A stretch of DNA of 64,000 nucleotides, from contig NZ_JAQMUE010000031.1 in NCBI RefSeq assembly GCF_028330985.1, forward strand, positions 1 through 64,000, read 5' to 3'. Within the stretch, counting starts at the first letter, position 1; each line of letters opens with the position of its first letter. A model generated the notes under the pieces. That model was not told the origin of the DNA. It was given only the letters and a program-made list of their open reading frames with translations, and ran no database searches. The translations under genes were made by a program, and so were the position numbers. The DNA comes from Roseofilum reptotaenium CS-1145. Lineage in GTDB: Bacteria; Cyanobacteriota; Cyanobacteriia; Cyanobacteriales; Desertifilaceae. Positions 26,276-31,422 of the stretch are shown here, in pieces.

Positions 26276-27100
26276 ATGAGGAAAATCGCTGTTTACGGAA
26301 AAGGCGGAATTGGTAAATCAACCACCACTCAAAATACAGTTGCTGGGTTAGTTGAATTAGGCCGCAAAGTCATGATTGTCGGTTGTGATCCCAAAGCTGA
26401 CTCCACTCGGTTACTACTCGGTGGCTTACACCAGAAAAGCGTCTTAGATACCTTACGCGAAGAAGGCGATGACGTAGACTTAGAAGACATCCGCAAAGAA
26501 GGCTTTGGGAAAACTTTATGTGTTGAATCCGGTGGGCCAGAACCGGGTGTCGGTTGTGCAGGACGGGGGATTATTACCTCCATCAGTATGCTCGAACAAC
26601 TCGGAGCCTATGAAGAACAAGTTGGTTTAGACTATGCCTTCTACGACGTTTTAGGAGACGTAGTTTGTGGTGGATTTGCCATGCCCATCCGCGAAGGCAA
26701 AGCTCAAGAAATCTATATTGTCACCTCTGGTGAAATGATGGCAATGTATGCTGCCAACAACATTTGTCGAGGTATTATGAAATATGCCGAGTCTGGTGGT
26801 GTTCGGTTAGGTGGATTGATTTGTAACTCCCGTAAAGTTGACCGAGAAGCAGAACTGATCATGGCTTTAGCCGACGCATTAGGCACACAAATGATTTACT
26901 TCATGCCACGGGACAACATGGTACAACGGGCAGAATTAAACCGGAAGACGGTGATTGAATACGCTCCCGAATCCGAACAAGCGCAACATTATCGCAACTT
27001 GGCTAAAGCCATTGATGAAAATACCAATCAAGTCATTCCTACTCCCGTATCTAATGATGACCTGGAAAAATTACTCGTGAAATATGGATTATTCGGTTAA
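26276..27100 (+). CDS. nifH: Nitrogenase iron protein NifH, anaerobe (cluster III) type
   Basis: A 274-residue Fe protein that passes electrons to NifDK using ATP. P-loop GKGGIGKST at residues 9-17; cluster-ligand cysteines Cys94 (GVGCAGRGI) and Cys131 (DVVCGGFA). Arg97 sits in the site modified by ADP-ribosylation in some bacteria. The N-terminus [20 protein letters not shown] and TVAGLVELG match the form found in anaerobes rather than the TTSQNTLAAM form of typical cyanobacteria. RBS AGGAGG lies just upstream. First gene of nifH-I1-I2-D-K. Confidence 0.97.
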
Positions 27101-27174
27101 GGATACACCCGTATTCTCAACGGACATCCATTCCTTTTGTTGTATTTTCTCATTTTTGAGGAGGAAAAACTCAA

Positions 27175-27561
27175 ATGCCAGTCGCTATTCGAGCCATTGT
27201 TCGACCAGAAAAAGCCACTGATGTGATGCAAGCCTTATTGAACGCAGGCTTTCCCGCTGTCACCAAAATTGATGTTTACGGTCGAGGCAAACAACGGGGT
27301 TTGAAAATTGGGAACGTTCACTACGATGAACTGCCTAAAGAACTGTTAATGTTCGTCGTCCCCGACGAAGATAAAGACACTGTAATTCGGATTATTCTTG
27401 ACAGCGCCCGTACCGGAACCGAAGGAGCCTATGGAGATGGAAAAATCTTCGTAACTCCAGTTGAAGAAATCTACACCGTCAGTACAGGTGTTAAAGAAAC
27501 GGCTCAAGTTTCAGTCCCGGCCACCCCGGAAACTTCTCCTCGAACCTTAGTGACGACTTAG
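27175..27561 (+). CDS. nifI1: PII-like nitrogenase regulator NifI1
   Basis: A 128-residue GlnB-family protein. Typical NifI1 segments are AIRAIVRPEKATDVM, IDVYGRGKQRGLKIG, YDELPKELLMFVVPDEDK and YGDGKIFVTPVEEIYTVSTG. A C-terminal extension of some 20 residues (about 108-128) goes beyond the PII core. NifI1 and NifI2 of methanogens form a complex that binds and inhibits NifDK in ammonium, relieved by 2-oxoglutarate. It lies between nifH and nifD as in those organisms, with an ideal GAGGAGG site. Its presence in an oxygenic phototroph is unusual. Confidence 0.93.
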   Translation: MPVAIRAIVRPEKATDVMQALLNAGFPAVTKIDVYGRGKQRGLKIGNVHYDELPKELLMFVVPDEDKDTVIRIILDSARTGTEGAYGDGKIFVTPVEEIYTVSTGVKETAQVSVPATPETSPRTLVTT

Positions 27562-29940: not shown

Positions 29941-30048
29941 GGTTAACGGGCTGGAAAGCCCCTACCCTCCCTCCTCCAGTTGCAGGGGGTTTGTCCTGAA
30001 CTCGTTGCAACTCTCACCCTTCATTCATCCCAACTCGGAGAGAAAATC

Positions 30049-31422
30049 ATGTTAGAAGCAACCCCCAAAGAAGTTGTAGAACGCAAAGCACTACGGGTTA
30101 ACCCCGCCAAAACATGCCAACCCATCGGGGCTATGTACGCCGCATTAGGAATTCATGGATGCTTACCCCATTCCCATGGCTCACAAGGATGTTGTTCTTA
30201 CCATAGATCGCACCTAACTCGTCATTATCGCGACCCGATCATGGCAGCAACCAGTTCGTTTACTGAAGGTTCAGCCGTCTTTGGTGGTGGTGCAAACTTG
30301 CGTCAAGCGTTTACCACCATGTACAAACTGTACGACCCTGATGTAATTGCGATTAATACCACCTGTCTGTCAGAAACCATTGGTGATGATATTCCGACGT
30401 TGATTCGGGAAGCGCGGGAAAGTGGGATTATCCCCGAAGGTAAAGTGGTCATTCATGCCAATACCCCCAGTTATGTGGGAACTCATGTAACGGGTTGGTC
30501 AAATATGACGGCTGGGATTGTCAAGTACCTTTCAGAGAAGACTGAAACTCCCCAACAGCAAATTAATGTGATTCCCGGATATGTAGAACCGTCCGATATC
30601 CGCCAGATTAAGCATCTGCTGGATCAAATTGGGGTGAACTCTGTAGTCTTCCCAGATACCAGTGATGTGGTGGATACGCCGCAAACGGGAACATTTGAGA
30701 TGTATCCCAAGGGAGGAACCTCAGTGGAAGCGTTGCATACTACTGGCGATAGCATCGCAACTCTGGCTCTGGGGCCAGATGCCTCGAAACAAGCGGCGAA
30801 AGAACTGGAAAATAAATGCAAGGTTCCCTATCAATTGTTGGATTTACCCATCGGTATTGCCGCAACGGATCGCTTTATCCAAGCAATTATAGAAACCACA
30901 GGTGCAGCCGTTCCAGAGTCCTTGAAAGATGACCGGGGTCGGTTAGTAGACTTGATGACGGATATGCAGCAATATCTCTATGGCAAGCGAGTCGCTTTAG
31001 CTGGAGATCCCGATCAAATTGTTCCTTTAACTGAGTTTCTCGTCAGTTGTGGCGCTAAACCCATGTATGCGATCACTGGAACAGCTTCCAAATATTTCAC
31101 CACGCGCTGTAAAGAAATCTTGGAAGAGTGGGTTCCCGATGCGATCGTCAAAGATGATACGGATCTGTTCTATCTACATCAACTGATCAAGACTAATCCT
31201 GTGGATCTACTCATTACCAACGTTTATGGCAAATATATTGCCCGTGCGGAAGATATTCCCCTAGTCCGGTTTGGTTGGCCGATCTTAGACCGTGTCGGTC
31301 ACAGTTTCTTCCCCTCTGTTGGCTATAAGGGCAGTATGCATCTGTTGTGCGACATCATTAATACGATTTTGGAACGCAAAGATCGGGATGACCCCGATGA
31401 AATCTTTGAGTTAGCTCTGTAA
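30049..31422 (+). CDS. nifK: Nitrogenase molybdenum-iron protein beta chain NifK
   Basis: A 457-residue subunit that shares the P-cluster with NifD. P-cluster ligand regions: KTCQPIGAMYAALGIHGCLP, GSQGCCSYHRSHLTRHYRDP and NTTCLSETIGDD. It is short at the N-terminus compared with the proteobacterial form (about 520 residues), as in anaerobe-type NifK. ATG 30049 with GGAGAG is chosen; a longer frame to 29980 has no site and odd composition. It starts 108 bp after nifD. Confidence 0.97.
   Translation: MLEATPKEVVERKALRVNPAKTCQPIGAMYAALGIHGCLPHSHGSQGCCSYHRSHLTRHYRDPIMAATSSFTEGSAVFGGGANLRQAFTTMYKLYDPDVIAINTTCLSETIGDDIPTLIREARESGIIPEGKVVIHANTPSYVGTHVTGWSNMTAGIVKYLSEKTETPQQQINVIPGYVEPSDIRQIKHLLDQIGVNSVVFPDTSDVVDTPQTGTFEMYPKGGTSVEALHTTGDSIATLALGPDASKQAAKELENKCKVPYQLLDLPIGIAATDRFIQAIIETTGAAVPESLKDDRGRLVDLMTDMQQYLYGKRVALAGDPDQIVPLTEFLVSCGAKPMYAITGTASKYFTTRCKEILEEWVPDAIVKDDTDLFYLHQLIKTNPVDLLITNVYGKYIARAEDIPLVRFGWPILDRVGHSFFPSVGYKGSMHLLCDIINTILERKDRDDPDEIFELAL

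Follow-up and report, generated by a model that had tools for sequence, protein, structure and literature searches.

Nitrogenase operons of the cluster III ("desulfo") type have been reported for Coleofasciculus, Sodalinema, Geitlerinema PCC 9228, Pleurocapsa and Roseofilum spp. (PMC12694226, PMC5061849). The nifHDK genes of PCC 9228 cluster with those of Pleurocapsa 7327, M. chthonoplastes and Phormidium OSCR (PMC5061849), while a 2025 paper on Sodalinema described a truncated nifB', termed nifB'SU typical cyanobacterial genes, and left open whether one or several inter-phylum transfers had occurred (PMC12694226). The locus described here lies in a 64,000 nt stretch (the window; NZ_JAQMUE010000031.1, positions 1–64,000) that is contig 31 of the draft genome of Roseofilum reptotaenium CS-1145 (5.67 Mb, 113 contigs, 98.95% complete). 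Nucleotides 26,276–31,422 encode nifH-nifI1-nifI2-nifD-nifK of the cluster III type. The locus is likely a mosaic molybdenum-nitrogenase operon, in which a Desulfobacterota-like core was spliced behind host nifB-nifS-nifU and is probably read from an NtcA promoter. The full gene run, or island, spans nt 22,998–41,895 and comprises a nifB remnant, nifS, nifU, nifH, nifI1, nifI2, nifD, nifK, a [2Fe-2S] ferredoxin gene (fdx), nifE, nifN, nifB, cysE, nifV, an open reading frame (ORF) of 101 amino acids, modA and modBC. Its features up to the complete nifB are as follows.

22,998–23,405, + strand: nifB remnant (nifB'), C-terminal NifX-like domain only (PF02579, 81.5 bits)
23,500–24,726, + strand: nifS, host type (PF00266; start at 23,440 in the ORF list)
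24,785–25,720, + strand: nifU, host type (PF01592, PF04324 and PF01106)
26,024–26,065, + strand: candidate NtcA class II promoter match (GTAGTCACATATAC, 22 bases, TATAAC)
26,276–27,100, + strand: nifH (TIGR01287, 451.5 bits, above cut-off)
27,175–27,561, + strand: nifI1 (PF00543, 77.5 bits, above cut-off)
27,703–28,113, + strand: nifI2, with a long T-loop in the alignment (PF00543, 85.1 bits, above cut-off)
28,285–29,940, + strand: nifD, 551 amino acids from the ATG (TIGR01282, 676.8 bits, above cut-off)
30,049–31,422, + strand: nifK (TIGR01286, 453.5 bits, above cut-off)
31,542–31,859, + strand: [2Fe-2S] ferredoxin, fdx (NF041612, 87.9 bits, below the cut-off of 150)
32,077–33,423, + strand: nifE (TIGR01283, above cut-off)
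33,466–34,860, + strand: nifN (TIGR01285, 302.1 bits, below the cut-off of 326.8; assigned also by position and kin)
34,990–36,285, + strand: nifB, imported type, radical SAM and NifX-like domains (TIGR01290, above cut-off)

The family matches of nifH, nifD and nifK have E-values of at most 9e-136, which rules out chance. A preliminary description of this DNA, made from its letters, had noted two PII-like genes between nifH and nifD and a NifD of 551 residues; both observations hold, the length being counted from the ATG (the longest ORF begins at a TTG 17 codons earlier). For nifK, the ATG at nt 30,049 is where the Roseofilum acuticapitatum ORF begins, and the ORF list has a TTG at nt 29,980. 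NifD carries the insertion of roughly 50 residues seen in cluster III, and aligns over residues 40–550 to chains such as 1mio, while for MoFe chains of the other type the best alignment ends at residue 409. The Cys and His motifs for the cofactor and the P-cluster are conserved in the alignment, and their residues presumably have the usual catalytic roles. The ferredoxin belongs to the kind with a thioredoxin-like fold. Searches of the draft genome with the NifH and NifD families found no second, classic nif cluster: the NifH family returned the window gene, one other full-length relative on contig C15 (366.9 bits, perhaps chlL) and four short matches, and the NifD family returned the places of NifD, NifE, NifK and NifN in the window and one distant match.

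The origin of the core was assessed with a concatenated NifHDK tree of 61 rows, 13 of them desulfo-type cyanobacterial (the carriers) and 20 classic cyanobacterial; two loci were left aside, L219 (partial genes) and L085, and the rows labelled Desulfobacterota include two metagenome-assembled genomes that bear the name Deltaproteobacteria but are classified by NCBI in Myxococcota. The 13 carrier rows form one clade (support 100) inside the Desulfobacterota-side group and the 20 classic rows form a separate clade (support 100), so that NifHDK groups with anaerobe sequences, apart from cluster I. When two gammaproteobacterial operons were added and the 13 were held together with the 20, the cost was 544 log units and the approximately unbiased (AU) test gave p 1.8e-38. 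Placement inside the main cyanobacterial clade is thus rejected, and a horizontal origin of the nifHDK core is supported by these alignments. An earlier AU test of carriers with classic rows, run without another cluster I group, gave p 0.23; that non-rejection came from the very long classic branch, and the two gammaproteobacterial operons resolved the question. NifD of the island is 64–69% identical to the nearest Desulfobacterota-side sequences, the highest value outside cyanobacteria being 69% (G669, the best of 345 Desulfobacterota genomes, 105 of which gave any match). The G+C content was also considered as a sign of foreign DNA, but at 0.42–0.48 the island falls within the range of the window and is uninformative.

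The sequence comparisons divide the island into two kinds of gene: nifS, nifU, nifV and the nifB remnant are of cyanobacterial type, and nifH-nifI1-nifI2-nifD-nifK-fdx-nifE-nifN-nifB is imported. A host-type nifB'SU joined to an imported nifHI1I2DK-fdx-ENB is the arrangement by which a desulfo-type cyanobacterial operon is recognised. NifD is 38–42% identical to 20 classic clusters against 58–68% for Desulfobacterota-side loci, NifE 37–39% against 68–82% (84–88% in carriers other than Roseofilum) and NifB 36–43% against 46–65%; outside cyanobacteria the imported NifB has matches of up to 62% along most of its sequence, and in classic cyanobacteria of at most 43%. The ferredoxin is 82–83% identical to those of Hydrococcus and Pleurocapsales and 47–65% to those of the listed loci outside cyanobacteria. 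For the other block the direction is reversed, with NifS 65–73% identical to classic clusters and NifV up to 62% identical to a classic cyanobacterium over most of its length versus 45% for the best match outside. For NifS and NifU, identity by itself says little, as values of 60–67% and 54–61%, respectively, also occur in some Desulfobacterota. In the four genomes whose NifD is closest (G669, G581, G429 and G548), however, the NifS relatives reach only 44–46% and branch outside the NifS clade, and a full-length NifU was not found.

Trees of NifS (with more distant cysteine desulfurases included) and NifU group the carriers with classic cyanobacteria (support 97 and 99). In a combined NifS and NifU tree with a gammaproteobacterial outgroup, carriers and classic cyanobacteria fall on one side (100/100), the carriers form one clade (100/98), and placing them with Desulfobacterota is rejected (p-AU 0.013). 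These trees were made without L060, L064 and L085, those of NifU also without L239 (short nifU), and the comparison set includes one Chlorobi genome (G400). The nifB remnant occupies the place of the classic nifB, before nifS-nifU, and is conserved relative to R. acuticapitatum (ratio of non-synonymous to synonymous substitution, dN/dS, 0.11). Other carriers aside, its best matches are the last 110–130 or so residues of classic cyanobacterial NifB (46–54% in the five best listed, top score 124 bits), and the best protein outside cyanobacteria scores only 67 bits. These trees are a test of the published view of nifB'SU as cyanobacterial genes. The preliminary description had taken the whole island as horizontally acquired; this stands for the core, but not for nifS, nifU, nifV and the nifB remnant.

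Eleven of the 13 loci of the tree show the nifU–nifH junction, the exceptions being L060, the contig of which begins 494 bases before nifH, and L064, which has no nifU upstream in the locus. Forcing the Roseofilum nifX/S/U sequences (nifS and nifU with the nifB remnant added) to group with the classic genes of its family-mate G013 is rejected (p-AU 9e-39); their partners are instead the genes of other carriers (99/98), while in the rpoB tree Roseofilum pairs with G013 (99/97). Independent replacement in each host is therefore disfavoured. A shared splice in distant cyanobacteria, with each block forming one clade, indicates that the mosaic was probably assembled once, within the limits that rooting sets.

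On the rpoB tree, carriers are interspersed with other hosts (7 label changes among 23 genomes), and a grouping of Roseofilum with Hydrococcus and LEGE 06147 is rejected (p-AU 2e-7), which suggests spread between cyanobacteria. NifHDK/rpoB distance ratios between carrier groups are about 1.0–1.5 (L064, 1.7–2.1), the classic mean being 1.47 (sd 0.36; 23 genomes, 45 classic pairs), and fit an old event; ratios within a single genus are much higher because rpoB hardly differs there. The same overlap of ratios is what would be expected if the operon, once assembled, had descended vertically beside classic nif with loss of one or the other and had never passed between cyanobacteria, and NifHDK does not reject Roseofilum with Sodalinema (p-AU 0.15), a grouping compatible with the rpoB tree. 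The scatter on rpoB, where the nearest host to Roseofilum has classic nif, speaks against such descent, as does the finding that none of the seven desulfo-type genomes in a draw of 386 has a classic NifD among the matches listed. Descent with loss is the less likely account, and transfer within the phylum is judged probable. As to the order of Roseofilum, Pleurocapsales and Sodalinema, NifHDK and NifX/S/U favour different arrangements and neither rejects that of the other, so no history is drawn from the branching of the carriers.

The candidate promoter lies 252 bases before the nifH ATG, between the host and imported blocks. NtcA, which senses 2-oxoglutarate (2OG), activates class II promoters with GTAN8TAC about 41.5 bases before the start and a TAN3T -10 box, and the Anabaena nifHDK genes are among its targets (PMC3898017), so that regulation of nif by NtcA was already known. 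In Roseofilum the palindrome is an exact GTAN8TAC, the spacing fits the canonical layout, and TATAAC agrees with TATAAT in 5 of 6 positions but does not fit TAN3T; chance would yield 0.0023 strict matches in 560 bases. Of the 13 desulfo-type operons, 12 carry an NtcA-like site, with no more than one mismatch and exactly 22 bases from a -10-like hexamer, at one common position in the alignment (-227 to -260). It is exact in the 3 of Roseofilum and has one mismatch in 9, those of Hydrococcus and Pleurocapsales keeping GT and AC; L060 is counted although the end of its nifU lies off the contig, and L064 has no site. The 12 matches are homologous, not independent. As controls, the stretch from -290 to -190 gave a match in 1 of 20 classic loci (N23) and 1 of 14 non-cyanobacterial loci (N21), with one more of each elsewhere within 560 bases (L239 at -452; L211, two sites), and shuffled sequences matched at 1–3% per lineage. 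Those 14 come from 27 listed non-cyanobacterial loci, the rest lacking a called nifH, enough upstream sequence or a start that fits the motif; under a looser start rule, the 15 non-cyanobacterial loci scored held no exact site. The window contains four GTAN8TAC palindromes against 18.6 in mononucleotide shuffles, an apparent scarcity that disappears under a first-order model (5.2).

Sites resembling sigma-54 promoters occur in 7 of 14 non-cyanobacterial loci, 0 of 20 classic loci and 1 of 13 desulfo-type operons (shuffled rate 0.9%). The rpoN gene is present in 5 of 5 Desulfobacterota-side genomes and in 0 of the 7 carriers searched, and ntcA was found in the Roseofilum genome itself (387 bits). 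From these sequence matches, the imported core is probably transcribed from the NtcA promoter before nifH. A search of the literature, in which subscription journals were mostly outside coverage, returned no title on an NtcA promoter of desulfo-type nif operons.

The two PII genes are true NifI1 and NifI2 by sequence. Their best structure matches are chains H (4e-30) and G (1.8e-27), respectively, of PDB 9p1x, which also contains the nitrogenase alpha chain matched best by NifD. In a tree of few columns (36 and 37 rows, one GlnB row), NifI1 and NifI2 form separate clades (support 98 each) with GlnB outside, and the host has its own canonical glnB on contig C47 (nt 5,095–5,409) and a further P-II-like gene on C82; ordinary glnB paralogues are thereby excluded. 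Among 388 genomes of the class, NifI1 was found in four, all of the desulfo type.

Compared with R. acuticapitatum, dN/dS (NG86) is 0.096 for nifI1 and 0.062 for nifI2, beside 0.040, 0.070 and 0.057 for nifH, nifD and nifK, so nifI is under purifying selection in Roseofilum. Two other carriers have damaged or missing nifI, each being a single draft genome: in Pleurocapsales LEGE 06147 (L059, nt 8,381–8,514) nifI1 is down to about 35 codons while nifI2 is still open, and in Synechococcales M55_K2018_004 (L064, nt 7,870–12,067) nifD directly follows nifH with no nifI in the nif locus, where attached nifSU, nifE, nifN and nifB were likewise not found. Such losses would be expected if the NifI pair were jobless leftovers in cyanobacteria, but the low dN/dS and the PII-type motifs retained across the aligned relatives make this improbable. 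By analogy with known NifI systems, the pair may control nitrogenase in Roseofilum. The preliminary view that the island brought its own post-translational control thus stands as far as the pair is concerned, although it is perhaps not the sole control, given the host-type NtcA promoter match before nifH.

A working model can be put together from these elements. In an early carrier, the nifH-nifI1-nifI2-nifD-nifK-fdx-nifE-nifN-nifB core of a Desulfobacterota-like anaerobe would have been joined behind host nifB-nifS-nifU, and the old host nifB would have been reduced to its final domain. Under nitrogen shortage 2OG would rise, NtcA-2OG would turn the operon on, and the high 2OG would also keep the NifI1/NifI2 complex away from NifDK. 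On arrival of ammonium 2OG would fall, transcription would cease, and NifI on NifDK would block docking of NifH at once. We infer this 2OG logic, and nitrogenase activity itself, from the known biology of NtcA and of NifI. The fuller proposal has about an even chance of being right: one ancient splice under an NtcA promoter, 2OG gating twice (through NtcA and the imported NifI), the package passed as a unit between distant cyanobacteria, and the second gate dispensable, as the carriers without NifI would show.

Several observations weigh against the mosaic-operon model. The hexamer TATAAC of the Roseofilum operons does not fit TAN3T, the seven Sodalinema-like sites have GC and so are without the T of the conserved GT, and the palindrome is perfect at that place only in the three Roseofilum operons. 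L064, the deepest carrier in the NifHDK tree, is without nifI, adjacent nifSU and the promoter match. By the account of PMC12694226, cyanobacteria that have only a desulfo-type operon have not been convincingly shown to grow on N2. Finally, a basal position of the carriers in cluster III, tested with the long classic or cluster I branch as sole outgroup, was not rejected (p-AU 0.12 and 0.23).

This last result bears on the possibility that cyanobacteria were the source and not the recipient of this cluster III lineage, which the p-AU of 0.12 does not reject. Where the root falls within cluster III is uncertain, so that donor and direction rest partly on distribution. Branches with support 99 and 97 place the carriers within a Desulfobacterota group, and the type occurs in 7 of 386 cyanobacterial genomes (one with a partial nifD) against 62 of 345 in the Desulfobacterota draw with NifD at least 52% identical; a cyanobacterial source is very improbable. 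Slightly less credible still is a recent acquisition of the whole island by Roseofilum alone from a local sulfate reducer. The 64–69% identity of NifD to the nearest Desulfobacterota-side sequences and the presence of the island in 3 of 6 Roseofilum genomes could be read that way, but the Hydrococcus, Pleurocapsales and Sodalinema-like operons are closer (NifD 74–80%) and fall in the same clade, the junction and the promoter place are common to carriers, and nifS and nifU are of host type. Acquisition was horizontal, as first proposed, but it was not private to Roseofilum: the NifHDK clade holds distant cyanobacteria, and divergence between host groups is about that of classic nif. A contaminating contig, conceivable in a draft of 113 contigs, can be dismissed, as all five other Roseofilum genomes have the upstream flank (fragmented in G003 and G004) and the island junction on that side is identical in three genomes.

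Within the genus, the 14 island genes tested against R. acuticapitatum are under purifying selection (dN/dS 0.04–0.18, NG86). The upstream junction is identical in all three genomes with the island, and the downstream junction differs between the two that are readable. No clean empty site was seen in the stretches read from the nif-less G002–G004, where only the upstream flank was found. The remaining features of the island are as follows.

36,314–37,054, + strand: cysE (TIGR01172, above cut-off)
37,044–38,195, + strand: nifV, homocitrate synthase, host type by identity (PF00682 and PF22617)
38,921–39,718, + strand: modA-like molybdate-binding protein (PF13531; substrate inferred from place and family)
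40,009–41,895, + strand: modBC-like permease-ATPase fusion (PF00528 and PF00005; substrate inferred)

The best matches of cysE are cyanobacterial (61–66% in the five best classic genomes versus 49–53% outside). In the stretch nt 34,990–37,054, nifB (synonymous divergence, dS, 0.53) and cysE (81% amino-acid identity) differ much more from their counterparts in Roseofilum UBA2566 than do the remaining 13 tested genes of the island (dS 0.02–0.19), and the stretch is likely a recombination tract. In R. acuticapitatum no cysE was found between nifB and nifV. The ORF between nifV and modA (nt 38,542–38,847) has no Pfam match and a dN/dS of about 0.07. A block at nt 8,058–11,689, 11 kb before the island, follows modBC directly in R. 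acuticapitatum (L222, nt 1,193–4,821), and this displacement indicates that the downstream side of the island was rearranged. Immediately past the island, an 890-amino-acid protein with an eCIS core domain is encoded on the - strand (nt 41,904–44,573).

The nif clusters of L085 and L219 look decayed. In L219 (G121, nt 7,497–10,720), nifU residues 1–78 are fused to nifH residues 192–274, nifD stops after 244 residues and nifS is without a start, which could be either deletions or assembly faults. In L085 (Microseira wollei, nt 7,815–11,844), a nifD without its 5' part stands beside a transposase-like ORF, followed by nifK and fdx; nifH, nifE and nifN were not found in this locus.

The kind of operon is not new, and the gene order, rightly noted at first as unusual for cyanobacteria, was already in print for several of them, including Roseofilum spp. 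What is added, all of it computational, is the probable single assembly of the mosaic, the candidate promoter at the splice and the natural losses of NifI. For the question of one or several inter-phylum transfers, the shared junction, the host-type block and the place of the promoter argue for one assembly. More widely, the locus suggests how an operon from anaerobes, one of a type commonly transcribed from sigma-54 promoters, could be put to use in hosts lacking sigma-54. This is relevant to transferring nitrogenase from one organism to another, and the named natural carriers with and without NifI make its role testable in oxygenic hosts. Among known systems, Roseofilum shares with Coleofasciculus chthonoplastes PCC 7420 and Sodalinema spp. 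the order nifB'SUH-I1-I2-DK-fdx-ENB, a single nif operon and NifHDK among Desulfobacterota (PMC12694226), and with Geitlerinema sp. PCC 9228 the nifI1I2 genes within the operon (PMC5061849). It differs from Sodalinema-like loci, in which nifV is upstream, by a nifV downstream of nifB and followed by modA-modBC, by the exact NtcA palindrome and by a slightly longer NifI1 tail. The plasmid cluster of Nitratidesulfovibrio vulgaris DP4 (L055) likewise has nifH, two P-II genes, nifD, nifK, fdx, nifE and nifN-like and nifB-like genes (NifD 63%), but no attached nifS/nifU and no NtcA match. PDB 9p1x, nitrogenase with two P-II chains, is the best match of NifD, NifI1 and NifI2 alike when compared by sequence. 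Classic cyanobacterial nif, such as that of G013 of the same family, shares the nifB-nifS-nifU-nifH order and the kin of nifS, nifU, nifV and cysE, and is set apart by its NifD (38–42% identical) and NifE (37–39%) across the 20 loci.

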